DNA from: Hyphomicrobium sp.
GTDB lineage: Bacteria > Pseudomonadota > Alphaproteobacteria > Rhizobiales > Hyphomicrobiaceae
DNA length: 51,687 bases
Assembly (NCBI RefSeq): GCF_020852195.1
Contig: NZ_JADZBI010000011.1
Location: forward strand, 1-51,687
Direction: 5' to 3'
Shown here: positions 1,183 through 44,510 of the stretch, one piece after another
Layout: each line of letters begins with the position of its first letter
Numbering within the stretch: the first letter of the stretch is position 1
Translations under genes and position numbers: made by a program
Notes under the pieces: model-generated
What the model saw: the letters and a program-made list of their open reading frames with translations, nothing else
What the model was told of the DNA's origin: nothing
The model's database searches: none

Positions 1183-2067
1183 ATGGAAAGAAAGCAGCTC
1201 GCCCCCGGCAGCCGGCTCGTCGTCGCCAGCCACAATCCGGGCAAGGTATGGGAAATCAAGGAGCTGATCGTGCCCTACGGCTTCGACGCCGTCTCCGCCG
1301 GCAACCTCGACCTCGCCGAGCCCGAGGAGACGGAGCCGACCTTCGAGGGCAACGCGCGCTTGAAGGCGCTGGCGGCGGCGAACGGATCGGGCCTGCCCGC
1401 GCTGGCCGACGACTCCGGCCTCGAGATCGATGCCCTCGGCGGCGCGCCCGGAATCTACTCCGCCCGCTGGGCCGGCCCCGGCAAGGACTTCGGCCTCGCC
1501 ATGCAGCTCGTGCATGATGCGCTGGCCGAGAAGGGCGCCTGGGAGGGCCTGCCGCCGCGCGCGAACTTCATCTCCGTGCTCTGCCTCGCCTGGCCCACCG
1601 GCGAGCACCGCCTATTCGAGGGCCGCGTCTACGGCACGTTGCGCTGGCCGCCGCGCGGCGGCAACGGCTTCGGCTACGATCCGATCTTCGTGCCCGACGG
1701 TGAGACGCAAACCTTCGGCGAGATGGAGCCTTCAGCCAAATACGCCATCTCCCACCGCACGCGCGCCTTCGAGGCCTTCAAGCGCGACTGCCTGGAGCAC
1801 GTGAAGCGGGATGGCACCGTTGCCAAGACGGGCCTCGAGGTCGAGGCCCTCGACGCCGCCGCTCGCAACCTCTCGACCCAGGCCGAGCTCGCCCGCTTCA
1901 TCGAAAGCCTGCGCGACGACCTTTCGCACAACGGCACGGCCTGGAAAGCCAGCGACCTCGCGGCCTTCCTGCGCTCTCTTGAACAGGCGGCCGCCGCGAC
2001 CGATGTTCCGGACGCGGAGCCACGCTGGCGGACACTCGCACGCCTGCTTTTTGCGGCCAGCCGATGA
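1183..2067 (+). CDS. rdgB: XTP/dITP diphosphatase (RdgB) with extra C-terminal DUF7660-like domain
   Basis: Non-canonical purine NTP pyrophosphatase, which hydrolyses XTP and dITP to monophosphates and keeps damaged purines out of DNA. The first ~205 residues carry the family motifs: [10 protein letters not shown] (nucleotide binding), [25 protein letters not shown] with the catalytic acids, GFGYDPIF and SHR. The protein is 294 residues, about 90 longer than usual. The tail (residues about 210-294; [18 protein letters not shown], later [10 protein letters not shown]) resembles small stand-alone DUF7660 proteins. The stop overlaps the hemW start as ATGA, so the two are translationally coupled. 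The enzyme call is firm; the tail assignment is from memory of the family. Confidence 0.95.
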
Positions 2068-25708: not shown

Positions 25709-26707
25709 TCAGACCGCCTTCACGCCCTTGCGCCGGCGCCCGGCGCGGCGAGCCGGCTGCTTGTCGGCAAAGAGTGTGTATTGCGCTTCGGGCACCTCGT
25801 GCTTGAGCACTTCGCCAAGTTTGGTCACGAGCGCAATGCGCTTGTTCTTGGTGATGGCATCGAGGTTCTGCATGCGCCATTTCACGGCCGGCAGCTTCCG
25901 GACGTCTTTCACCTCGAGGAGGGACCAGTCGGGTTCGCCCGCTTCGAACGAGATGAGGAACCGGCGATGCTTCTCCGGCATGTTCCCGACCATGGCCTCG
26001 ACGATGGCGGTCCGGGACGTCAGAAGATCTTCGAACGCTACCGGTTCCCGCGTCATGCCCTCAAAGCCATTGGCAAAGGCATCTGCGATGTCCTTGGGCC
26101 TGGCCGCCAGCACCTCCGCCATCGGCCGCTTGTGGCAAAGCAGGTAGACGATGAAGGCGGCGCGCAGTTCATCGCTGATGCCTTCATTGGCTAGAAGGTC
26201 GCGGACATCAAACAGATCCCGCGGATGTTGGCGGTCCAGGGCTGCCACGATTTTGCCGGCGAAAAGATCTGGAAATGAGAGCACCTGCATCTCGGCGAAG
26301 CCGAATTGATCTTCCACGGCTTCGCTCACGGCGCGGATTTCGGGAATGTAGGCACAGCCGCGCATGACCGGCGTCACCTCGACCTTGATCTGCACGCCGC
26401 GTTCGCGGACGAACAGTTTGGTCACGGCACCTTCTTCGGCGTTTTGCGTGACATGTGTTCCAGGCAGGGCTTTCTCGATGCGCCCGGCCACGCGCTTCAT
26501 CGCCTTGTCGATGGCACCAAGCGAACGCGCCCGGTTCAGGACGGGCAGGTAGGTGAGATCGATGTCCACCGAGAGCCGTGGCAGGTCGCGGTAGAAGAGA
26601 TTGATGGCGGTGCCGCCCTTGAGGGCGAACGAGTCTTCGCGTGCGATCAGCGGAATGACGCGAAGCAGCAGATTGACCTGGCGAACATAGATTTCGTTAA
26701 AAGCCAT
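25709..26707 (-). CDS. AbiEii/AbiGii family nucleotidyltransferase toxin
   Basis: A 332-residue DUF1814 nucleotidyltransferase, the toxin of type IV AbiE systems, which act in abortive phage infection and mobile-element maintenance. FALKGGTAINLFYRDLPRLSVDIDLTYL holds the GG motif and the DxD metal ligands (VDID). Further motifs are QVLSFPDLFAGKIVAALDRQHPRDLFDV, which keeps the conserved Lys and Asp residues. The ATG overlaps the antitoxin stop by one base (TGATG); a TTG one codon upstream is possible. Length fits full-size AbiEii. Confidence 0.92.
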   Translation of the reverse strand: MAFNEIYVRQVNLLLRVIPLIAREDSFALKGGTAINLFYRDLPRLSVDIDLTYLPVLNRARSLGAIDKAMKRVAGRIEKALPGTHVTQNAEEGAVTKLFVRERGVQIKVEVTPVMRGCAYIPEIRAVSEAVEDQFGFAEMQVLSFPDLFAGKIVAALDRQHPRDLFDVRDLLANEGISDELRAAFIVYLLCHKRPMAEVLAARPKDIADAFANGFEGMTREPVAFEDLLTSRTAIVEAMVGNMPEKHRRFLISFEAGEPDWSLLEVKDVRKLPAVKWRMQNLDAITKNKRIALVTKLGEVLKHEVPEAQYTLFADKQPARRAGRRRKGVKAV

Positions 26708-27525
26708 CAAAAGTCCTTGGGCACGGTGATCTGGTATTGCGAATCCAGTCGTCCGCCCTTGACCAGCATGCGCTTCCCTGCACCCAGATCAACAGCCTTC
26801 CTGTCGATGCGACCGAGCCACGCGTGGCTATGCCGGTCTGCAAAGAAGAAAAACAACCGCTTGACCTTCACACTCTTGCACTCGGCAAGCAGCCGGTGAA
26901 GCTTGGCTGGACGGAGCGTCGTCAACCCCTGCATCAGCATATCGACGTTGTGGAAGCTTTCGTGATCGGGCAGTTCGTCAAGAAGCTCCAGCACGGCGCG
27001 CTCCGGTGTCGAAAGGACAAGGGGCCAATCATATTGCCCCCATGGCTGCACGACGAAGCTGTCGCTCTTGTCCAGGTCTTTGCGCGCTTCCAGCTTTTGA
27101 GGCCCCGCAGGCATTTGCGCGGCGGGAAACAATGCCGTCGCGTTGCGGTAGATGAAGCGCACGTCCGGAAGGGGAAGCGTATTGAGCCACGTTGGGGGCT
27201 TGCGCGACCCATAGAGATAGAGAGTGGTCCCGCGCTGCCTGAGATAGTGAGCGTAGCCTTGCAGTTCGAGCGCACTTCGGCCGCCGAGGACCAGATCGTA
27301 TCCAAGCAAGGTCTGGAGGGAGACCACTACTTGCTGCCAGGTGAGCGGCGCCGACCGGCGCTGATAAACCCGTCGCGCCGGCTGGTGCAGCCAGTCCCCG
27401 GCCACATATTGGCTGCGCAGGGCAGTCGAGTAGCCTTTGGCGGCAAGCCAAGCGGCGTCCACGAGAAGACCCTCGGGAAGCTCCTGCTCAAGGCGGTTTA
27501 GAGATGAGCGCTTTTGCTTAGCCAT
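26707..27525 (-). CDS. AbiEi-type antitoxin/transcriptional repressor
   Basis: A 272-residue AbiEi-family antitoxin. The N-terminal part (LLVDAAWLAAKGYSTALRSQYVAGDWLHQPARRVYQRR) is the winged-helix DNA-binding domain of the family. The C-terminal domain (VLSTPERAVLELLDELPDHESFHNVDMLMQGL...LRPAKLHRLLAECKSVKVKRLFFF) matches the AbiEi C-terminal region. Related antitoxins repress their own promoter by binding inverted repeats; two candidate repeats are present upstream. The start is taken at MAKQKRSS (27525). Confidence 0.9.
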   Translation of the reverse strand: MAKQKRSSLNRLEQELPEGLLVDAAWLAAKGYSTALRSQYVAGDWLHQPARRVYQRRSAPLTWQQVVVSLQTLLGYDLVLGGRSALELQGYAHYLRQRGTTLYLYGSRKPPTWLNTLPLPDVRFIYRNATALFPAAQMPAGPQKLEARKDLDKSDSFVVQPWGQYDWPLVLSTPERAVLELLDELPDHESFHNVDMLMQGLTTLRPAKLHRLLAECKSVKVKRLFFFFADRHSHAWLGRIDRKAVDLGAGKRMLVKGGRLDSQYQITVPKDF

Positions 27526-27601
27526 ACTTAGCAAAATAGCATATTTTCAAACCGAAGTCCAGTTTATAGTATGCATGATTTGCTAAGCCAAACTTAGCAA
27601 A
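27513..27601 (-). promoter_or_regulatory. abiE promoter with two inverted-repeat operators
   Basis: A perfect 9-bp inverted repeat TTTGCTAAG-CCAAA-CTTAGCAAA lies at 27579-27601. A second, related one (TTTTGCT...AGCAAAA, 27513-27537) overlaps the antitoxin start. On the minus strand TTGGCT, 17 bases and TATAAA form a promoter whose -35 box is inside the first repeat. This is the layout expected for AbiEi autorepression. Confidence 0.7.
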
Positions 27602-35502: not shown

Positions 35503-35532
35503 TTGACCGCAACCCGCATTACACCGTATACT
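35503..35532 (+). promoter_or_regulatory. Promoter of family-2 leader, copy A
   Basis: TTGACC (35503-35508), 18 bases, TATACT (35527-35532). The copy at 43225-43254 has identical boxes and spacing. Transcription should begin near 35539, at the first hairpin of the leader. Confidence 0.75.
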
Positions 35533-35538
35533 GATCAA

Positions 35539-35741
35539 CGGGTCGGTTTGCATCCGGCCCGGGGCTTCGAAACCCCTTTTTTAATCACTGCGGCGGACAC
35601 AGCCGGAAAACGTGTCGCTTCTCGGTCTTAGGCCGGGAGGCGGCGTTATATGTCCAAGCCTTCGCGGCCAAAAAGCGCCGCGCCGTTTCTCAGTGATTAG
35701 CGGTTTCGAACTCCCGGCCACCAGCCAGCAAGTGGTGCCGG
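35539..35741 (+). ncRNA. Structured leader RNA, family 2, copy A
   Basis: Proposed fold: 5' hairpin CGGGTCGG/CCGGCCCG (35539-35546, 35554-35561); outer stem TTCGAAACC (35566-35574) with GGTTTCGAA (35702-35710); inner stem AATCACTG (35583-35590) with CAGTGATT (35691-35698). Inside are hairpins GACAC/GTGTC (35596-35600, 35612-35616), CTTCTCGGTC/GGCCGGGAGG (35618-35640) and CGCGGC/GCCGCG (35663-35682). After the outer stem comes CCGG-C-CACCA/TGGTG-CCGG (35714-35741). GGGG/CCCC plus T run (35561-35582) could instead act as a terminator. The unpaired GCGTTATATGTCCAAGCC stretch is conserved. The next gene starts 31 bases later. Confidence 0.72.
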
Positions 35742-35772
35742 TCTGGTTGGCTATTGCTGTGACGGGGGAGTT

Positions 35773-36075
35773 TTGAAGGCGGCTGCATTTGCCACGCTGA
35801 TTGTTTTGAGTATGGCGACGACCGCAATCGACGCCGCTCATGCTCAGGCAGAGTGTCCGGCCCTGGCGGCTGACGCACTCGATGAAGCCCAGAAGCTCCT
35901 CCAGACCAACGATCAGACAAAACTCAATGCCGCCCTGGCGTGCATCACCTTGGCGCTCGTGCAGACCCGAGCCGAGCTTGATGACCTGCGCGAAGGCCGC
36001 GTTGCGTTTACCGGACAGGTCTATGCGCCCAAGGGCGTGGTGATGGTCAAGCCCTCCGACCAGGAGGGCCGTTGA
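35773..36075 (+). CDS. Small exported protein, first gene of fibre module A
   Basis: A 100-residue protein with a Sec signal (KAAAFATLIVLSMATTAIDAAHAQA, cleavage near residue 26). The mature region is helical: ECPALAADALDEAQKLLQTN, later ALVQTRAELDDLREG. It ends GQVYAPKGVVMVKPSDQEGR. The start is TTG with GGGGGAG 4 bases away. Its stop overlaps the next gene's TTG start (TTGA). It could be a periplasmic partner or anchor of the large fibre-like protein; no family recognised. Confidence 0.75.
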   Translation: MKAAAFATLIVLSMATTAIDAAHAQAECPALAADALDEAQKLLQTNDQTKLNAALACITLALVQTRAELDDLREGRVAFTGQVYAPKGVVMVKPSDQEGR

Positions 36076-39000
36076 ATTGGGAGTACGTGCACAGTGTCTG
36101 GGCGCTCGTTCGATGCCCTCGTAAGCTCAAGCTGGGCGCCCAGACACTGTGCACGGCATTGCTGCTGCTTGCAGCGACGACAAGTCCGGCGCGGGCCAAT
36201 TGCCCTGCGGCACCCATCGCAGACCCCGACGACATGGCGATCAGCTTCCTTGCAGCCAATGGCGTGCAAGCGGCGTCGGCAAGCCTTCTCACATCGACGA
36301 TTAAGGAGGGCACAGTCGTCTATGACGACGCGAACGACGTGCTGAAGCTGTGCGACGGCAACAACTGGATCGAGGTCGGATCGGGTTCCGGCACCGATAC
36401 CCTCGCATCGCTTTCGTGCGCAGCCGGAGAGATTGCAAAGTTCAACGGCACGGCCTGGGCCTGTGCGGATGAAGGCGGAGGTAGCTATTCGTCCAAGGGA
36501 TTCTCGGTGGCAAGCTCCACGACGTCTATCCCAAGCGGGACCGCGACCAAGGTGACGTTCTCGGGATCGCCCACCAATGATTTCGGGAGCGGCTGGACCG
36601 GCAACACCTTTACCGTGCCTGCCGGTGAAGACGGTTGGTACGCGATCACCGGTTCGATCTATTTGCCTGCGGCGAGCGCCCACGCGGTGGCGTATTTGCG
36701 CGTCAATGGCAGTAACGTCGCAATCTCAAGAGACAACTATGCCGGCGGGGTTATCCAGTATCTGTCGGTCGCGGCGGTTGCCAAGCTGGATACGGGGGAT
36801 ACCGTTGAGCTTTTTGGTTATCAGTCCAGTGGTGGCGCCGTTTCCCTGACGGGCGCAAACTTCAGTCTCGCCAAACTCGGTGGCGGATCGGACACGCTGG
36901 CGAACCTGTCCTGCGCTACGAACGAGATTCCCAAATGGAACGGCACAGCCTGGGCCTGCGCGACTGATGGCGGCGGTTCAGGTGGTAGCAGCGGGCTTGA
37001 ATATTTCGCGGGCAACACGCTGCTCGTCGGCGGGATCACCTATCATAACATCACCCCGACCAATGATTACGCTGTCAGCGTTCCTGCCGGCACGAAGGCG
37101 GTGAAGCTGTCAGTCTACTATTATCATGGTCACAACGGAACCAATACGCACGGATACCTGAGCTTCCTCGCCTATCAGAAGGGCCAGACCGGCGCCGACA
37201 AGAAAGTCGCGTACTGGTCGCAGCACTTTAACGACTACGCGAACACTGACATCGCGCATCTGGATATCCCGTGGGACGACAGCCTCGACGATGAGGTGAC
37301 CATTGAGGTAACGGGAAGCTACAATACGAACGCCGCGAACACCTACAGCATCTACCTTGCCGGATATGTCGTCGGCGGCGGGTCGGGCAACGACACGCTT
37401 GCAGGATTGTCATGCGCCTCAGGCGAAATTCCCAAATGGAACGGATCGGCCTGGGCCTGCGCTGCCGACGGCGGTGGATCGGGGGCGGAGGGCTTTATCG
37501 ATGGGATGACCACCGATGCGCAGCCGTCGGGCAACCTGACCAGCGCATGCCCGGCTTATGTGGATGTGCCGTCTGCTTCCAAGTCCATCACGATACCCGA
37601 AGATGGGAATGCACTGATCAACTTTTCGCAGGTCTTTTACATGTCAGCGGGCGGTGGCGGCGTGAACTACCGCTTCTGCGCGGATAGCACCTGCACGTCT
37701 GGACTAAGCTATTTTTCGAACGAAGCATCGTCTCATAAGACGGCAGCGGGCACATGGGTGCTGCCGCTCACCGCCGGTGCCTATTCCGGCAAACTGCAAT
37801 ACTGCAAGACGGCCGGTACGACCGTTCATACAAACGCGTCCGGCAGCGTGTCCTGGAGCATCTCGATGCCCGGTGGCGGTTCGGGCGGCGGCGGAAGCGC
37901 CGCCACTACGATGGTCTCCGGCTGGCCGGATGCCATCATTTGCACGAACGGGAGCGCCACCGAGATTCTGTTCAACAACTGGACGGACGGAACCTTGCGC
38001 ACTTATGCGAGCCCGTATGACGGCTCGGGAGCGCGGCGATACATCCGGTTCAACGTCTCCGGGCAGACGTACAATGCCCATCAGGATCTCGCTGCATGGG
38101 ATTGCGTCATGGGCACGAAATCAATTGCCCAGCTTTATTCCGAGGGCAGGGCTTTCAACTTTATCGGCGACGGCTCATCGCAATGGACCGACGTTAGCGG
38201 CGGCATCAACTACGCGGGCGGCAAGGTAGGCATAGGCACGACGACGCCGGAGGCCAGCCTCGTGACCGTGGATACTGCGGTGGGTACCCCGCGTGGCATC
38301 GTCGCCAGCCAGTACAATACCGGCGTGCAAGGCGCATTGTTCATCGGCAAAAAAGCCCGCGGCGCGCCGGGCAGCGAGGCGGGCGTAGAAGCCAACGACT
38401 ATCTGGTTGCCCTACAGGGTATGGGCCACAACGGCTCTGCATTCTCCAATCCGCAAAGCGTTGTCACGTCCCGTGCTTCCGAGCTTTGGACGACAACGTC
38501 CAACGCAACCATGCTCGGCCTATGGACGACGCCGAGTACGAGCATCGTTGCGCAGGAACGTTTGCGCATCGACTCCACAGGCAGCGTTTCGATTGGCAGC
38601 AGTGCCGACGCAAATGCCAGTTCGTTGCTGGAATTGACATCAACGACGAGGGGCTTCCTGCCACCGAGGATGTCGACGACGGATCGCGACAACATCGCGT
38701 CGCCTGCCGAAGGCCTGGTGGTTTACAACACGACGACCAAATCGCTTGATCTGCGCGTCGCTTCAAGCTGGCTGTCATTCGGCGGCAGCATGACCGGAAG
38801 CACGATGATATCCGGCTGGCCGGATGCGCTTGTGTGTACCAGCGCGGGCGATACGGACATCATGATCATTACCGAGAAGAACGCCGACTACGTTACGTAT
38901 GAAATCGCCGGTGACGACAATGTCGCGGCCTTCGATGTGGCGTCGGGTGCGTGGGACAGCGATAACGACTCGAACATGGCCGGCTATGACTGCCTTAACC

Positions 39001-40394
39001 AAACCATTGCGCAATTGTATGCCGCAGGTAAGGCCTTCAACTTCGTCGGCGGGTCGAGCGCAGCGGCTGACGGTTCGGCCGGACAGATCCAGTTTAACGA
39101 AGGCGGCAACCTGAAAGCGGACGCCGCCCTGCACTGGGACAACACGAACAAGCGGCTCGGCATCGGGACTGCCACGCCGCAGCGCCCCTTGCACGTACAG
39201 GTGAATGCTGCCGGATCTCCCACCATGATTGCGCTCGAGAACCTGGATACTAGCGGCAGCACGGCAGTCATTTCGCACCGAATTGCGACAACGGGTGTGG
39301 GGGCAAGCACCTTCGTCGAAGCGACAGGCATCCAGATGAAGACGGTGGAGCACGATCATGCAACGCGTGCCTCGCAACTCAGTTTCTGGACCGCTGCCAA
39401 TGGCGTCTACAACAACCGCATGATCATTGATGGAAGCGGCAACGTCGGCATCGGGACGACTTCGCCGGGCCAGAAGTTGCATGTCTCGGGAACGGGCGGC
39501 GATACTTATGTCAGGGTCGACACCGCCTCGAGCGCGCATGCGGCAGGGATACATCTGACGGCAGGCGCCATTTCAAATTACGGAAGCATCCTTGTCCACC
39601 GGGCGAGCGATAACGGGCTTCTGTTGCTCAACTCCGAAAACGGCCCTGTAATTCTAGGGGTCAATGAAACAGAAATGATGCGCATTTCGAGCACCGGGAA
39701 CGTTGGCATCGGGACGACTTCGCCGACACAGAGGCTTGAGGTCCGTGACGGAGGCATCGCCCTTTCATCCGAGGAGGCGAGCGTCACTCTGGCCTTCAAG
39801 CCGGAAGACCAGTCGTCCACATACGTCAACACCGCTGACGAACGACGTATGCAACTCACGACGACCGGCATGAACGGCAGCGTCTTCGGATACAAATTTT
39901 CCTGGCGAAACGCCGACGGAAGTGCGCGCACGGATGCACTTTCCATGCACAAGGATGGCCTCATCGGTATTGGGATGAATTCGCCAAGCTACAAGTTGGA
40001 TGTCAACGGCACGGTGCGCGCAACGACATATCTGTATGCGTCGGACCGCAGACTGAAGACCGACATCAAGACGACCAGCGGCCTCGATCTGGTGTCGCGG
40101 ATGCACGGCGTTTCCTTCCGGTGGAAAGACACCGGCAAGGCTGCCACGGGCGTCATCGCGCAGGAAATCGAAAAGGTTCTGCCAAACGCCGTCTCGACGG
40201 ACAAAGCCGGCAGCAAATCGGTTGACTACCCCCAGCTCATCGGCCCGTTGATCGAGGCCATAAAGGAGCTCAAGGCCGACAACGATAATCTGCGCGCCGA
40301 ACTGAAGGCTGCGAACGACAACCACGAGGTCGAACTCGACGAACTGCGCGCAGAAATCGAAGCGATCAAAGGCCTGACCAGCGAGGCGCGTTGA
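36072..40394 (+). CDS. Large exported tail-fibre-like protein with peptidase-S74 chaperone domain
   Basis: A 1440-residue repetitive protein. A Sec signal (TLCTALLLLAATTSPARA) ends near residue 43. Three ~28-residue repeats of DTLAxLSCxxxEIxKWNGxAWAC follow (about 110, 275, 440), each before a variable beta-rich domain. Then come two SGWPDAxxC modules, several phage-fibre repeats (GNVGIGTTSP, KRLGIGTATP) and a C-terminal S74 intramolecular chaperone: ASDRRLKTDI, where such domains self-cleave, VIAQEIEKVLP and a coiled coil to the end. S74 domains trimerise phage spikes. A Sec signal is unusual and suggests a cell-surface adhesin. It starts at TTG after AGGAGG. Confidence 0.85.
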   Translation: MNWEYVHSVWALVRCPRKLKLGAQTLCTALLLLAATTSPARANCPAAPIADPDDMAISFLAANGVQAASASLLTSTIKEGTVVYDDANDVLKLCDGNNWIEVGSGSGTDTLASLSCAAGEIAKFNGTAWACADEGGGSYSSKGFSVASSTTSIPSGTATKVTFSGSPTNDFGSGWTGNTFTVPAGEDGWYAITGSIYLPAASAHAVAYLRVNGSNVAISRDNYAGGVIQYLSVAAVAKLDTGDTVELFGYQSSGGAVSLTGANFSLAKLGGGSDTLANLSCATNEIPKWNGTAWACATDGGGSGGSSGLEYFAGNTLLVGGITYHNITPTNDYAVSVPAGTKAVKLSVYYYHGHNGTNTHGYLSFLAYQKGQTGADKKVAYWSQHFNDYANTDIAHLDIPWDDSLDDEVTIEVTGSYNTNAANTYSIYLAGYVVGGGSGNDTLAGLSCASGEIPKWNGSAWACAADGGGSGAEGFIDGMTTDAQPSGNLTSACPAYVDVPSASKSITIPEDGNALINFSQVFYMSAGGGGVNYRFCADSTCTSGLSYFSNEASSHKTAAGTWVLPLTAGAYSGKLQYCKTAGTTVHTNASGSVSWSISMPGGGSGGGGSAATTMVSGWPDAIICTNGSATEILFNNWTDGTLRTYASPYDGSGARRYIRFNVSGQTYNAHQDLAAWDCVMGTKSIAQLYSEGRAFNFIGDGSSQWTDVSGGINYAGGKVGIGTTTPEASLVTVDTAVGTPRGIVASQYNTGVQGALFIGKKARGAPGSEAGVEANDYLVALQGMGHNGSAFSNPQSVVTSRASELWTTTSNATMLGLWTTPSTSIVAQERLRIDSTGSVSIGSSADANASSLLELTSTTRGFLPPRMSTTDRDNIASPAEGLVVYNTTTKSLDLRVASSWLSFGGSMTGSTMISGWPDALVCTSAGDTDIMIITEKNADYVTYEIAGDDNVAAFDVASGAWDSDNDSNMAGYDCLNQTIAQLYAAGKAFNFVGGSSAAADGSAGQIQFNEGGNLKADAALHWDNTNKRLGIGTATPQRPLHVQVNAAGSPTMIALENLDTSGSTAVISHRIATTGVGASTFVEATGIQMKTVEHDHATRASQLSFWTAANGVYNNRMIIDGSGNVGIGTTSPGQKLHVSGTGGDTYVRVDTASSAHAAGIHLTAGAISNYGSILVHRASDNGLLLLNSENGPVILGVNETEMMRISSTGNVGIGTTSPTQRLEVRDGGIALSSEEASVTLAFKPEDQSSTYVNTADERRMQLTTTGMNGSVFGYKFSWRNADGSARTDALSMHKDGLIGIGMNSPSYKLDVNGTVRATTYLYASDRRLKTDIKTTSGLDLVSRMHGVSFRWKDTGKAATGVIAQEIEKVLPNAVSTDKAGSKSVDYPQLIGPLIEAIKELKADNDNLRAELKAANDNHEVELDELRAEIEAIKGLTSEAR
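36087..36154. repeat. Perfect 19-bp inverted repeat in the signal-peptide region
   Basis: GTGCACAGTGTCTGGGCGC (36087-36105) and its exact complement (36136-36154) flank 30 bases, directly after the TTG start of the large fibre-like gene. As mRNA it would form a very stable hairpin. As DNA the 30-base spacer could be inverted, and both orientations keep the frame open. Confidence 0.85.
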
Positions 40395-41287
40395 GACGAT
40401 ACGTTCTTGCCGCGCTTTTCCTGCTTCTGCTACCGACGCCCGTATTCGCCGCCGACTCCTACCAAGTCAATCACGGCGCGACGGTCGATATCACCGAACA
40501 CGGCGAATGCCGTACCGTTACGAACAACCACGCATCGGGCGCACCGCTTTTCATTCCGACGAAGACAGCGCCGGAATGGTCCTCGTTCTACGGCGCGACG
40601 ATTGCAGGTGTGACGATAGAAGCGTGTAGCGCCTGCAGCGTCACGCCGGGTTCACAAAGCTTCACGACGGCCGGGTCTCATAACTTCGTCGTCCCTTGCT
40701 ACAACACCTTGACCGTAAGGCTCTGGGGCGGCGGCGGTGGCGGCGGCGGAAGTATCTGGAGTGCCAGCCATTCAGCTTACAATGGCACGGCTGGCGGCAA
40801 TTCGACGTTTCAGGGCATGACCGCAGGCGGCGGTGGTGGAGGCCAAGCCGCCTACGGATCATGGGGCCAGAACGGGAGGGCGGGCGGAACCGCGGGCACT
40901 GCCAGCGGCGGTACGACGAATACACCGGGCATCGCAGGCGGAGCGGGGCAAAACTGGGGATCTTCTCCAGCCGGCGGGAATGGTGGCGCTTCGCCAAACG
41001 GCGGCACGGGCGGCATTGGCGGCTACGATTGGGGTGCTGCTCCCACTGCCGGCACTGCGCCCGGCGCTGGCGGCGGCGGCGCGGGATCGTGTGACGACAG
41101 CTGGTCTAATGGTTCTGGCGGCGGTGGCGGCGGTGGATATGTGCAACGGGTCTACAGCGCGGGCGGCCTGACAGTCGGCCAATCCTTAAGTGCTACCGTC
41201 GGTGCGGCCGGATTGGGCAAACCCGGAGAGTGCGGAGACGTTGGCGGCAATGGTGCCGTCGGCCGCGTCACCTTTACATGGAACTGA
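40391..41287 (+). CDS. Exported glycine-rich adhesin-like protein
   Basis: A 298-residue protein with a Sec signal (YVLAALFLLLLPTPVFA, cleavage near residue 21), a short N-terminal domain with a Cys cluster (EACSACSVTPGS), and a glycine-rich C-terminal part. SFTTAGSHNFVVPCYNTLTV followed by RLWGGGGGGGG starts a domain like the glycine-rich ones of phage adhesins (compare the polyglycine gp38 type). Runs of Gly alternate with short loops up to the final strand VGRVTFTWN. TTG start overlaps the upstream stop as TTGA, so it is coupled to the S74 fibre. It may be the binding tip. Confidence 0.75.
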   Translation: MRRYVLAALFLLLLPTPVFAADSYQVNHGATVDITEHGECRTVTNNHASGAPLFIPTKTAPEWSSFYGATIAGVTIEACSACSVTPGSQSFTTAGSHNFVVPCYNTLTVRLWGGGGGGGGSIWSASHSAYNGTAGGNSTFQGMTAGGGGGGQAAYGSWGQNGRAGGTAGTASGGTTNTPGIAGGAGQNWGSSPAGGNGGASPNGGTGGIGGYDWGAAPTAGTAPGAGGGGAGSCDDSWSNGSGGGGGGGYVQRVYSAGGLTVGQSLSATVGAAGLGKPGECGDVGGNGAVGRVTFTWN

Positions 41288-41391
41288 GGGCGGACATCCG
41301 TCTGATTTTCATAATCAGACACAATCCCACAAAACTTGCATTCAGACGGCCCGATCTGCCATGAACACGCAACCCTAACAAAGGAGTATGC

Positions 41392-41814
41392 GTGAATTCT
41401 GACAATGAATTTCTGTTATGTGAGTACTTCAACAAGAATGGCCGTTGTATCGAGCAAATCTGTATCGCCGACGGTGAAACCGCAGCTGCTACCCGTCAGC
41501 TTCGTGAGAGGCTGGCAAAGCGGAGCGGCCGAGCACTTCTTCAAACGATGCGAACCGAGGCGGAAGCCTCCGGCGCTTCGACCAGCCTCGACGACGCGGC
41601 GATGGCGCTGCACGCGCTGATCCATGATGTAGCTGAAGAACGCATTCTGATCGACGAAGCGCGCAAGATCTCTTCCGTGAGCGTCAACTACCGCAAGGCT
41701 GTGACCATCGCAGAAATCGTCCCCACGCTCGAAGCCAGGTTTGGCGGCCATGCGGCCTGCTGGGTACGGGGCATCTTCCCGCACCTGAACCTCGGACCTG
41801 CAGGCGTGAACTAG
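41392..41814 (+). CDS. Hypothetical cytoplasmic protein in fibre module A
   Basis: A 140-residue protein without a signal or membrane span: MNSDNEFLLCEYFNKNGRCI, then a helical part (ATRQLRERLAKRSGRALLQTMRTEAE) and a C-terminal half ending AACWVRGIFPHLNLGPAGVN. GTG start with AAGGAG 5 bases upstream. It lies 104 bases after the glycine-rich gene. No family recognised; its position suggests co-expression with the fibre genes but gives no function. Confidence 0.65.
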   Translation: MNSDNEFLLCEYFNKNGRCIEQICIADGETAAATRQLRERLAKRSGRALLQTMRTEAEASGASTSLDDAAMALHALIHDVAEERILIDEARKISSVSVNYRKAVTIAEIVPTLEARFGGHAACWVRGIFPHLNLGPAGVN

Positions 41815-41919
41815 GCCGACGACAATGTCGGGTGCATCGGTTACGCCCGCAGCTCTCACTGGAACATGGTGGACGGTTCGGTCATTGTGCGGGCTGGGGC
41901 GCGCTGCTGTAGAGATCAC

Positions 41920-42432
41920 ATGACCGACGAACCACCTTTCACACTCGTCGAGCCACAAAAGGCCCGCGCAGCCGCACAACGACTGTTCGAGGCAGTGAAA
42001 GGCGCGCTGAGCGAAGTGTTACCTACAGCCGACATCAGACACATTGGGTCAACCGCCATCCCGGGATGCCTGACCAAGGGTGATCTGGACATTGCCGTGC
42101 GTGTTCCGGTCGACGCGTTCCCGGCCGCTGACGCAGCCCTCGCAAAGATGTACGTGCGCAATGAGGGCTCCATCCGCACGGCCACGTTTTCTGCGTTCGA
42201 GGATGGCGCGAGCGATCCCCATCTCGGAATCCAGCTTGCCGCTATCGACGGTCCGTCCGATTTCTTCCATCTCTTCGTTGATGCGCTCCTGAGCGACCCG
42301 GAACTCGTCGAGGAATACAACGAGCTGAAGCGCGCCCACGCAGGCCAGGCCATGGCCGCATACCGGGCTGCAAAAGATGAATTCATCGAGAGCGTTCTCG
42401 CGCAACGGCGCGCCACCAAGAGCGGAGATTAG
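41920..42432 (+). CDS. GrpB/UPF0157 family nucleotidyltransferase-like protein
   Basis: A 170-residue GrpB-type protein. IRHIGSTAIPGCLTKGDLDIAVRV carries the nucleotidyltransferase-fold GST and DxD residues; LGIQLAAIDGPSDFFHLFVDALLSDPELVEEYNELKRAHAG is the typical second half. GrpB proteins are related to dephospho-CoA kinase C-terminal domains; their activity is unproven. The ATG at 41920 starts at the domain boundary; the upstream frame adds only 18 unlikely residues. Its stop overlaps the end of the antisense recombinase fragment. Confidence 0.8.
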   Translation: MTDEPPFTLVEPQKARAAAQRLFEAVKGALSEVLPTADIRHIGSTAIPGCLTKGDLDIAVRVPVDAFPAADAALAKMYVRNEGSIRTATFSAFEDGASDPHLGIQLAAIDGPSDFFHLFVDALLSDPELVEEYNELKRAHAGQAMAAYRAAKDEFIESVLAQRRATKSGD

Positions 42433-42560
42433 GTCCACATCCTCGCGGCAATCTTCCGCTCTTCGCTGCCGACCGCTTCCAGATAAATCGCCGTCGTCGT
42501 CATGCTGGCGTGTTCCAGCCACCGTTAGACTAGGTTGATCGGAACGCCGCCTTGCCGTCC
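42429..42560 (-). pseudogene. 3' remnant of a tyrosine recombinase gene
   Basis: Reading the minus strand gives VPINLV-stop-RWLEHASMTTTAIYLEAVGSEERKIAARMWT-stop, matching the C-terminus of the intact recombinase at 44537-45130. The intact gene has Gln where this has a stop, and GH where this has EH. Similarity begins at the stop codon and ends near 42560, so about 100-130 bases of a second gene copy remain. The C-terminal Tyr is preserved, but the fragment cannot be functional. Confidence 0.85.
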
Positions 42561-42570
42561 GTTTGACCGA

Positions 42571-42861
42571 TCAGAAATGAATCTGGTGGTCCATCGCCTC
42601 GTGAAGAAGGGTGAGGATCAGCACCCCGTTACCATCCACGCGGTAGAAGATGACGTGGCGATCGTGCTCATGGCGACGCAGGCCGGACCGAATGTCTTCG
42701 GCCTCTCTGCCCAGACGCGGATTCGCGGCGAGGTCCTCAAATACCTGGTACATGGCGCGTGCGTAATCTTCGGCCTGACGATAGCCGAACGTGGTCAGTG
42801 TATAGAGATAGATATTGTCCAGATCCCCGGCAGCACGGTTCGTAAGCCGATAGCTAGCCAT
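42571..42861 (-). CDS. parE: ParE family toxin
   Basis: A 96-residue RelE/ParE-superfamily toxin: YRLTNRAAGDLDNIYLYTLTTFG, then ANPRLGREAEDIRSGLRRHEHDRHVIFYRV and ILTLLHEAMDHQIHF. The pattern matches ParE-type gyrase poisons more than RelE nucleases. Its start overlaps the antitoxin stop by 8 bases, the usual layout with the antitoxin first. It sits between the recombinase remnant and fibre module B, where it could stabilise the module. Confidence 0.92.
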   Translation of the reverse strand: MASYRLTNRAAGDLDNIYLYTLTTFGYRQAEDYARAMYQVFEDLAANPRLGREAEDIRSGLRRHEHDRHVIFYRVDGNGVLILTLLHEAMDHQIHF

Positions 42862-43105
42862 CTATCAGGCCGCGCTCCCTTGCTTTCGTACGGGCGTCTT
42901 CAAAGATTTCGTCGAGAGAACGGACGCTGATGCCACTCGCGTCGGCGTCGTCTATGCGGCGCCGGAGCGCGGAGAGCCTGCTATCCTTGTCTTTCCGGAT
43001 CAGGTCGCGCACATAATCGCTTGAACTCGCGTATTCGCCAGAGTCAATCCGAGTTTCGATCCATGCTTTCATTGGATCGGGAAGGGAAACGGTCATTGTT
43101 GCCAT
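42854..43105 (-). CDS. parD: ParD-type antitoxin
   Basis: An 83-residue type II antitoxin with a ribbon-helix-helix DNA-binding domain (MATMTVSLPDPMKAWIETRI ... ASSSDYVRDLIRKDK) and a C-terminal toxin-binding tail (SVRSLDEIFEDARTKARERG). I chose the ATG at 43105; a longer frame to 43246 has AT-rich, unlikely N-terminal codons. The AT-rich stretch upstream (43106-43160) should contain its self-repressed promoter, though I do not see clear boxes. Confidence 0.92.
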   Translation of the reverse strand: MATMTVSLPDPMKAWIETRIDSGEYASSSDYVRDLIRKDKDSRLSALRRRIDDADASGISVRSLDEIFEDARTKARERGLIDG

Positions 43106-43224
43106 AAGAAGCCTCTCAATATTTAATTTTAGCATCGATAATAAAAATTCACAATATTTATGACGGATAGCTAGAAAACCGGCCAAAGCAATTTCGAGCC
43201 AAGATATTGCACACACTGGATTGG

Positions 43225-43254
43225 TTGACCCTTTCTGAATAAACACCTTATACT
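43225..43254 (+). promoter_or_regulatory. Promoter of family-2 leader, copy B
   Basis: TTGACC (43225-43230), 18 bases, TATACT (43249-43254), identical to copy A in boxes and spacing while the flanking bases differ. It reads toward the fibre paralogue. Confidence 0.75.
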
Positions 43255-43261
43255 GATTATA

Positions 43262-43454
43262 GGCCGGATTATCCGGTCAGGGGCGTGATAACCTCTTTTG
43301 ATGTTGCGGCAGACATGAGCCGGAATTCATGTCGCTTCTCGGCCAATGGCCGGGAGGCGGCGTTATATGTCCAAGCCTCGCGGCCAAAAAGCGCCGCGCC
43401 GTCTCAACATCAGCGGTTATCAACTCCCGGCCACCAGCCAGCATGTGGTGCCGG
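43262..43454 (+). ncRNA. Structured leader RNA, family 2, copy B
   Basis: Same fold as 35539-35741 with changed helices: 5' hairpin GGCCGG/CCGGTC (43262-43278); outer stem GATAACC (43287-43293) with GGTTATC (43415-43421); inner stem GATGTTG (43300-43306) with CAACATC (43405-43411). Inside are hairpins GACATGA/TCATGTC (43312-43333), CTTCTCGGCC/GGCCGGGAGG (43335-43357) and CGCGGC/GCCGCG (43379-43398); CCGG-C-CACCA/TGGTG-CCGG follows (43427-43454). Single-base indels against copy A inside the otherwise conserved part rule out a shared coding frame. The next gene starts at 43491. Confidence 0.72.
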
Positions 43455-43490
43455 TCTGGTGGCTATTGAGTTTCGAGACGACGAGGCTGA

Positions 43491-44510
43491 TTGCGTGTTT
43501 TACTGACCCTCTTGCTCTGGAGCATTGCTGCCCCTGCTTACGCTGTTTGCGCCTTTCCGGACGGCGTCGAGGGCGAGATGGTCTACAACACCACCCACAA
43601 GGTCGCGCAATTCTGCAACGGCACGCACTGGATCAGCATGGCGCCGGGCAGCGCGCCCGCCGCCGATCCGCGCATAGGCATTCTGACCAACGGCAAATGG
43701 TGCACAAGCGACGGCGCAACTGTGAACTGCACCGAAGATGCGCCCGACACCGGACTTGCGGAAGCGGCGGGCGACGCTGGAGAGATTCAGTTCAACGACG
43801 GCGCCGACGGGCTTGATGCCGATGTGAACCTGCACTGGGACAATACGAACAAGCGGCTGGGCATCGGGACAGCGAGCCCTGCAACCACGCTGCATGTGAA
43901 TGGAAGCGTCACTACCGGAAACCGTCTGCTGGGCGGCTTCGCGTATGGGTCGGATTATTTCTGGATGGGCCTAACCGGCACTGCGGCAGCAACTAACCGC
44001 ATTGGGATTGGCTTTGAAGCGAATGATGTTACCGGAGCGATAAAGAATATCCATTTTCGGACGATGGGCAGCACCAACCTAGTGCTTGACGACAGCGGCA
44101 ATGTCGGGATCGGGACGATGGCTCCCGGTGCGAAGCTTGATGTAGCCGGAACGATAAACGCAAGCGGACTGGAGATTGCAGGAGAGCCTTACGCCAGGAC
44201 TTTCGCCGTCCGCAGCAGCGACGCGACCCGAAAGTGCATCTCCGCCAACTACGCCCCGACGGGCTATTCGGACGACGAGTGTACGTGGATAGCTACCGGA
44301 AGCCACCACTACGACGGCGCGACGATCGATACCTTTCCCACATATTCAGACAGCACTTGCACGACGGTCTTTGATGCTCATGGGCTGAAACGTATCCAAT
44401 ACAGCGATGTTCAAAACAACAGCACATACTTCAAGATATCCGTCATTTCGGGCTATTACGACACGCTCCTGTGCATCAAGGGAAGCTCAACGCAAACTCT
44501 GCAGTACTAG
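43491..44510 (+). CDS. Exported fibre-like protein, module B
   Basis: A 339-residue protein paralogous to parts of the large fibre-like protein. Sec signal RVLLTLLLWSIAAPAYA; then VEGEMVYNTTHKVAQFCNGTHWISM, which matches the N-terminal module of the 1440-residue protein (EGTVVYDDANDVLKLCDGNNW). Next come LHWDNTNKRLGIGTASP, GNVGIGTMAP and a C-terminal domain with several Cys (ending LLCIKGSSTQTLQY). No S74 chaperone is present, so it may need another trimerisation aid. Start TTG with GAGG 5 bases away. It is the only fibre gene in its module. Confidence 0.8.
   Translation: MRVLLTLLLWSIAAPAYAVCAFPDGVEGEMVYNTTHKVAQFCNGTHWISMAPGSAPAADPRIGILTNGKWCTSDGATVNCTEDAPDTGLAEAAGDAGEIQFNDGADGLDADVNLHWDNTNKRLGIGTASPATTLHVNGSVTTGNRLLGGFAYGSDYFWMGLTGTAAATNRIGIGFEANDVTGAIKNIHFRTMGSTNLVLDDSGNVGIGTMAPGAKLDVAGTINASGLEIAGEPYARTFAVRSSDATRKCISANYAPTGYSDDECTWIATGSHHYDGATIDTFPTYSDSTCTTVFDAHGLKRIQYSDVQNNSTYFKISVISGYYDTLLCIKGSSTQTLQY

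Follow-up and report, generated by a model that had tools for sequence, protein, structure and literature searches.

The contig NZ_JADZBI010000011.1 of Hyphomicrobium sp. (51,687 nucleotides (nt), here called the window) carries two similar leaders on its forward strand (copy 1, 35503-35772; copy 2, 43225-43490), and the question arises which kind of RNA they encode and how it could act on the genes behind it. A first-pass annotation had described them as a structured RNA kept by selection, such as a riboswitch or another regulatory leader, and had recognised no fitting Rfam family. The two copies alone had suggested one static fold, but their homologues show two competing folds with locus-specific loops of antisense type. 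The leaders are probably a variant form of the bistable 5′ leader of the phage C4 and IsrK kind. Well supported is their architecture, that of a C4/IsrK-like bistable leader akin to the little-understood small RNA family sRNA-Xcc1 (RF02221).

Two mutually exclusive folds with locus-specific loops

Both leaders consist of the same series of parts. In copy 1 these are:

35503..35532 (+), predicted promoter by sequence match, TTGACC-18-TATACT, boxes 35503-35508 and 35527-35532
35561..35576 (+), b1 hairpin, GGGG-loop-CCCC; its strand TTCGAAACC (35566-35574) pairs with b′
35582..35590 (+), a1 strand, holding AATCACTG; pairs with a′
35591..35616 (+), H-type pseudoknot with stem CGGC/GCCG; loop GACAC (35596-35600) pairs with GTGTC (35612-35616)
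35618..35639 (+), hairpin B, CTTCTCGG (35618-35625) with CCGGGAG; 3′ arm in common with P1
35631..35639 (+), 5′ strand of P1, GGCCGGGAG; the RF02221 match begins here
35640..35681 (+), P2 hairpin with the conserved internal loop GTTATATGTCCAAGCC..GGCCAAAAAG
35683..35704 (+), P3 (CCG/CGG), carrying loop a′ CAGTGATTA (35691-35699), within which CAGTGATT forms the inner stem with AATCACTG
35702..35710 (+), b′ GGTTTCGAA, outer-stem partner of TTCGAAACC
35711..35723 (+), P1′ CTCCCGGCC, followed by ACCA
35717..35751 (+), P4 hairpin, GCCACCAG with CTGGTTGGC, as read from the sequence; overlaps the end of P1′
35764..35772 (+), ribosome site GGGGGAGTT, 7-nt exact complement of b′/P1′ AACTCCC

The corresponding parts of copy 2 are:

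43225..43254 (+), predicted promoter by sequence match, TTGACC-18-TATACT, boxes 43225-43230 and 43249-43254
43280..43295 (+), b1 hairpin; GTGATAACC (43285-43293) pairs with b′, the outer stem being GATAACC with GGTTATC (within 43415-43423)
43299..43306 (+), a1 TGATGTTG; inner stem GATGTTG with CAACATC (within 43405-43412)
43307..43333 (+), pseudoknot with CGGC/GCCG; GACATGA (43312-43318) with TCATGTC (43327-43333)
43335..43356 (+), hairpin B, including the 5′ strand of P1 (43348-43356)
43357..43397 (+), P2
43405..43412, 43415..43423 and 43424..43432 (+), a′, b′ and P1′, then ACCA
43430..43463 (+), P4 hairpin

The identical promoter spacing and all arms of the outer stem, inner stem and hairpin that the first-pass annotation had quoted are present in both copies. 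The leaders with their flanks align at 82% mean identity over 355 columns and differ by single-base indels, as it had also noted, and the fold of each leader beats 200 of 200 dinucleotide shuffles (z -3.33 and -6.17). Its hairpin GACAC/GTGTC has to be read differently: the arms exist, but in the alignment of homologues this arm appears as one half of an H-type pseudoknot, in which the loop of CGGC/GCCG pairs with the strand preceding hairpin B. A third, longer copy is found elsewhere in the same genome; a fourth place was rejected as a chance match in coding sequence.

Further members were collected with a pattern of the P2 loop, which was found in 26 stretches of genome contigs and one of viral contigs. 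Twenty of the 26 and the viral one were judged members by reading and form, together with copy 1, copy 2, L005 and L003, the set of 25 window-type members; the other six (L030, L035, L038, L041, L047 and L050) were taken for chance matches and discarded. Alignment A4 comprises 23 of these members, with L028 and L049 excluded (no b1 located by the script; L049 is apparently truncated at its 5′ end). From A4 the covariance model R1 was built, in which the b1:b′ and a1:a′ pairs are not encoded. R1 matches in 35 of 386 alphaproteobacterial genomes and in four of eight genomes of the genus. The resulting model-found set comprises 31 loci (29 from the alphaproteobacterial and two from the genus search) with 32 hits; for the tests on 29 loci L126, L128 and L130 were removed as near-duplicates of L125. 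The 25 window-type members come, among others, from Hyphomicrobium, Filomicrobium, Devosia, Micavibrio, one metagenome-assembled genome of Bradyrhizobiaceae, further ones of alphaproteobacteria, and three such genomes labelled Verrucomicrobia. Close relatives of the leaders were detected in their own genome and in two (G003 and G006) of 40 relatives searched. A search of phage and plasmid records for close relatives of copy 2 yielded none. Locus L121 contains two model-found copies back to back and divergent, at 1501-1663 (-) and 1802-1953 (+), one of them above the RF02221 cut-off.

On A4 the precursor-type fold (b1:b′, pseudoknot, hairpin B and P2) is paired in 93.4% of cells and shows 57 double-change cells versus 19.0 +/- 4.1 in shuffles (0/500). 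This confirms the compensatory helix changes claimed for the two copies. Its covariation amounts to 0.299 versus 0.175 +/- 0.009 in shuffles (0/500) and at most 0.114 in slid controls; the count of further pair types points in the contrary direction (26 versus 28.8 in shuffles, 486 of 500 as high). In three adjacent b1:b′ pairs both sides have changed in 12, 11 and 10 of the 23 members. The C4-like fold (P1:P1′, P2 and P3) is paired in 99.2% of cells, with 34 double-change cells versus 8.9 and covariation of 0.265 versus 0.139 in shuffles (0/500; further pair types 132/500). RNAalifold, unaided, proposes the b1 hairpin, the next hairpin and P1/P2/P3, with double changes in 12 of 39 pairs. Both folds covary, in support of the claim of an RNA fold kept by selection.

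These two folds are mutually exclusive because b′ runs on into P1′ and the P1 strand is at the same time the 3′ arm of hairpin B; such a pair of exclusive folds is also a feature of the IsrK type. The closed fold is lower in energy in 23 of 23 members (ViennaRNA, with pseudoknots outside the model) by a median of 12.3 and at least 0.1 kcal/mol. With the 5′ part deleted in silico, P1 closes completely in 21 members and incompletely in L032 and L039. In the C4-like fold the stem P1 resembles an acceptor stem, often with ACC directly behind it. In L106 and L116, among others of the model-found set, the P4 hairpin 3′ of P1′ is followed by a T-rich stretch, a possible terminator competing with P1′.

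Whether the loops belong to their own locus was assessed by a two-block complementarity test, in which a′-b′ was scored against segments of its own and of other loci with 20000 permutations. Against their own 5′ segment the 25 window-type members reach a mean of 37.3 versus 25.9 for other loci (17 rank first; 0/20000), and at 29 model-found loci the values for the own b1-a1 are 33.5 versus 17.9 (27 of 29 rank first; 0/20000). The two sets therefore both contain a′-b′ loops complementary to the upstream a1-b1, as in C4. Hairpin B in these 29 loci also prefers its own partner (17.1 versus 14.1; 0/20000).

Relationship to sRNA-Xcc1, C4 and IsrK

At curated cut-offs an Rfam scan of the window matched a tRNA only, and to this extent the statement that no Rfam family fits was correct. 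With relaxed thresholds both copies match RF02221 over its full length (model 1-87) with 34.1 and 34.8 bits (E 2.5e-4 and 1.4e-4), which is below its gathering cut-off of 53 bits. Both contain the three-stem core P1/P2/P3 of this family, including a P2 with internal loop. Two of four window-type loci match it as well (L006 with 37.6 and L005 with 33.4 bits), and 9 of 19 model-found loci do so at E <=1, five of them at E <0.01; the model-found L121 passes the cut-off with 56.2 bits. RF02221 itself was detected in 11 of 150 genomes of the order (six over the cut-off), in 55 of 397 of the phylum (36 over) and in none of 14 control genomes. The window variant differs in having a pseudoknot and hairpin B before P1, the pseudoknot replacing the T-rich hairpin of sRNA-Xcc1 loci, and in lacking, as a set, the downstream a2-b2 match.

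According to published accounts, sRNA-Xcc1 is an RNA of ~88 nt detected on Northern blots (PMC2996969) and is carried in integron cassettes (PMC12444791). We read 41 of its loci by eye. Many of them show the order promoter, b1, a1, T-run hairpin, core with a′-b′, followed by copies of b and a lying across the ribosome site (examples are L082 with CTTATCAGGAG, L064, L061 and L059 with CTCACAG); this overlap rests on reading because the downstream test window spans 120 nt. In the two-block test the loops of these loci fit their own upstream segment (33.6 versus 25.8; 12 of 41 rank first; 0/20000) and their own downstream leader (28.6 versus 23.8; 9 of 41 rank first; 0/20000). In a test of exact runs individual loci give little signal (4 of 41 first and 1 of 41 with p <=0.01 downstream, seven and seven upstream) and only the sums are strong (281 versus at most 250 downstream, 335 versus at most 270 upstream). 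The T-run hairpin between a1 and P1, often CGG..CGGtaTTTTTgTGCC, looks like an intrinsic terminator in L014-L026 and L059-L087, and likewise in phage P1 before C4.

Proteins encoded behind 38 RF02221 loci (L021, L023 and L080 were left out) contain the domains Bro-N (5), Phage_pRha (3), P22_AR_N (2), KilA-N (1) and SymE_toxin (2), and L021, scanned separately, gave P22_AR_N. Their PHROG matches are mostly named 'anti-repressor', and Haemophilus phage Aaphi23 has a region like that of L060, located over a gene with the annotation ant. In L059 and L079 sRNA-Xcc1-type leaders stand before proteins read as SymE-like, which suggests that such a leader may hold the SymE ribosome site.

The C4 RNA is described as three stems with an RNase P cut at the 5′ end of P1, in which b′ lies over ribosome sites and the specificity comes from a′ (PMC5320573). 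In phage P1 the matches follow in the order c4-a1b1 (RF03163, 51.0 bits), isrK (35.1 bits, below its cut-off of 50) and C4 (RF01695, 68.8 bits), and by eye b1, a1, a′, b′, b2 and a2 can be recognised. The order b1-a1-core(a′-b′) is thus common to the phage P1 C4 region and the 41 sRNA-Xcc1 loci. With C4 and c4-a1b1 of phages P1 and P7 the window variant shares this order with P1, P2 and P3 in the core, a P3 loop that carries a′, the position of b′ ahead of P1′ and GG at the 5′ end of P1; in contrast, P2 of C4 is a plain hairpin and C4 has a downstream address at the ribosome site. The IsrK leader (RF01394) of prophage Gifsy-1 is described with a silent and an active fold that set translation, a 5′ segment that either folds on its own or base-pairs with a strand further along, and a short IsrK that activates translation in trans (PMC4825925). 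Such a 5′ segment and two folds of one leader recur in the window variant. There IsrK ends in a terminator and its action in trans was tested, whereas the window variant, known from sequence, has a pseudoknot at this place and no clear terminator is seen by eye in either window copy. Rfam unites C4 and c4-a1b1 in one clan and places RF02221 in none. For Xylella strain De Donno annotations of C4, isrK and sRNA-Xcc1 within ~400 bases of one another are reported (PMC12189769). The relatives of the leaders suggest that sRNA-Xcc1 belongs to the same kind of switch; C4, IsrK, sRNA-Xcc1 and the window variant may be related by descent or may have only their plan in common. No work joining sRNA-Xcc1 with antirepressors was found in the literature searched, and as far as the accessible texts go sRNA-Xcc1 and C4 antisense RNA are named together only as separate families; the 2011 sRNA-Xcc1 paper lay outside this search, so an earlier notice is possible.

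Proposed switch and alternative explanations

From these parts we infer processing, action in trans and the direction of regulation as follows. Transcription would begin at the sigma-70-like promoter, and in the intact leader the closed fold would keep b1-a1 paired with a′-b′ and the P1 strand within hairpin B. An RNase P cut at the 5′ end of P1 (35631 in copy 1) may then take off the 5′ segment, as in C4; alternatively, a copy of this segment acting in trans may titrate it, as in IsrK. Sequence hints toward RNase P are the GG at the beginning of P1 and the motif RCC directly 3′ of P1′, present in 23 of 25 window-type members and 21 of 32 model-found copies. With the 5′ segment gone or titrated P1:P1′ would close and give a C4-like RNA with exposed a′ and b′ loops. 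At sRNA-Xcc1 loci the freed loops would target the ribosome site of the gene that follows, and therefore we propose that this RNA represses its translation. In the window variant the downstream address appears mostly gone and the exchange of folds could reach the gene via b′/P1′ (AACUCCC), for which about half of the members offer a possible pairing partner in a GGGGGAG(UU) ribosome site: complementarity of at least 6 nt is present in 12 of 25 members versus 14 of 382 control sites, some lengths being underestimated since some antisense strings ended one base early. It amounts to 7 nt in copy 1, and in L034 the base preceding AACUCCC and the ribosome site depart jointly from the usual form (CAACUCCC with GGGAGUUG).

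Several results weigh against this interpretation. As sets, a′-b′ of the 25 window-type members and of the 29 model-found loci do not match their own downstream leaders (4291/20000 and 1699/20000), and in neither set do they complement the next gene's ribosome site; single exceptions with a downstream loop match, such as L131, were seen by eye. Copy 2 has only 4 nt of ribosome-site complement, in the minimum free energy fold of copy 1 the ribosome site is paired with the b1 segment and not with P1′, and many 8-nt cases concern related genes, so that the 12 cases are not independent. RCC is missing in 11 of 32 model-found copies. C4 (RF01695) gave no match to the window copies at E <=10 and none at E <=1 in 16 loci and in 19 model-found loci, and RF02221 matched neither L003 and L008 (the other two of the four window-type loci) nor 10 of 19 model-found loci. 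In a first test of duplex energy between RF02221 loops and downstream leaders the own sum lay beyond 10000 permutations with 1 of 41 loci ranking first, but reversed loops as control were nearly equal (-27.9 versus -28.8 for the own loops); because of this control it was replaced by the exact-run and two-block tests.

Besides the C4/IsrK-like switch three other explanations have to be considered. The pseudoknot, the nearly invariant P2 internal loop, the exchange of two folds and the position upstream of translation starts would also suit a riboswitch, where pseudoknot and P2 loop bind a small molecule and hairpin B and P1 act as expression platform. This is unlikely since the downstream genes (exported and outer-membrane proteins, regulators, nucleases) have no common pathway, the variable, locus-specific a1/a′ loops resemble antisense RNA and not an aptamer, and the close relative RF02221 is of antisense type; no riboswitch family is among the Rfam matches of the window, and we found no specific evidence for this option of the first-pass annotation. 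Somewhat better, though still doubtful, are the prospects of a small RNA acting mainly in trans, with P4 and a U-rich tail ending the transcript, a′-b′ addressing messages elsewhere and the gene behind expressed by read-through only. The ~88-nt sRNA-Xcc1 on Northern blots and a U-rich stretch 3′ of P4 in several members (by eye) fit this idea, but copies 1 and 2 have no clear U tract there by eye. Moreover, the address of copy 1, TCGAAA-N(2-25)-AATCACTG, occurs in its own genome on its own two strands only, and that of copy 2 on its own strands and at three places elsewhere, with one match for the reversed control.

A site of recombination or transfer acting as single-stranded DNA, comparable with integron attC, must be regarded as very improbable. 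It would agree with the mobile context (relaxase, coupling protein, ArdC, integrase) and with the spread of sRNA-Xcc1 in integron cassettes. Against it stand the constant upstream promoter, the coding start 50-150 nt downstream, the Rfam match to an RNA family and the frequent G-U pairs, which in DNA would be G-T; U-G is found at two pairs of hairpin B in 18 and 14 of 23 members, and so many kept G-U pairs fit RNA and not single-stranded DNA.

Returning to the C4/IsrK-like leader, we tentatively put forward a wider idea, for which the odds are at present somewhat unfavourable: it might be a widespread, self-addressed expression module. Its private antisense loops would recognise only their own 5′ segment, so that each island gene has an independent, orthogonal on/off leader. 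Such modules could be derived from C4/sRNA-Xcc1-like antirepressor switches by loss of the downstream address. In Alphaproteobacteria and Verrucomicrobia they would now stand before the cargo of islands, to which exported fibres and defence-like genes belong, and it would follow that sRNA-Xcc1 acts as a cis-linked repressor on the antirepressor or SymE gene that comes after it. If the C4/IsrK-like reading is true, sRNA-Xcc1, so far noted chiefly for its horizontal transfer and uncertain in its function, would gain a concrete, testable job and form one class of phage-derived switches together with C4 and IsrK, and the window variant would be such a switch reused for island cargo other than an antirepressor.

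Genes behind the leaders

Genes encoding exported and fibre-like proteins follow both copies; the view of a regulatory-type leader before such genes is supported:

35773..36075 (+), gene 1 behind copy 1, protein of 100 amino acids with signal-peptide-like start, TTG start
36072..40394 (+), gene 2 behind copy 1, fibre-like protein of 1440 amino acids with Peptidase_S74 chaperone domain
43491..44510 (+), gene behind copy 2, exported protein of 339 amino acids with weak tail-fibre PHROG matches, TTG start

Window-type leaders precede cargo such as fibre-like and exported proteins; genes behind members of the model-found set encode outer-membrane proteins, regulators, DUF4268 and a PD-(D/E)XK protein. 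PADLOC gave candidate matches in the latter set to PDC-S11 (best E 1.5e-96) and PDC-S26 (8.6e-23). Window-type leaders of L103, L104 and L125 stand ahead of candidate anti-phage genes (DUF4268, PD-(D/E)XK), the assignment of members being a reading of the proteins.

Since the window also encodes a relaxase, a coupling protein, an AbiE pair, ArdC and an integrase-family gene, the two leader modules sit in a mobile region. The AbiEi/AbiEii toxin-antitoxin pair (25709-27534 (-)) lies near relaxase and coupling protein, and a ParD-like antitoxin gene (42854-43246 (-)) is located divergently beside the promoter of copy 2.

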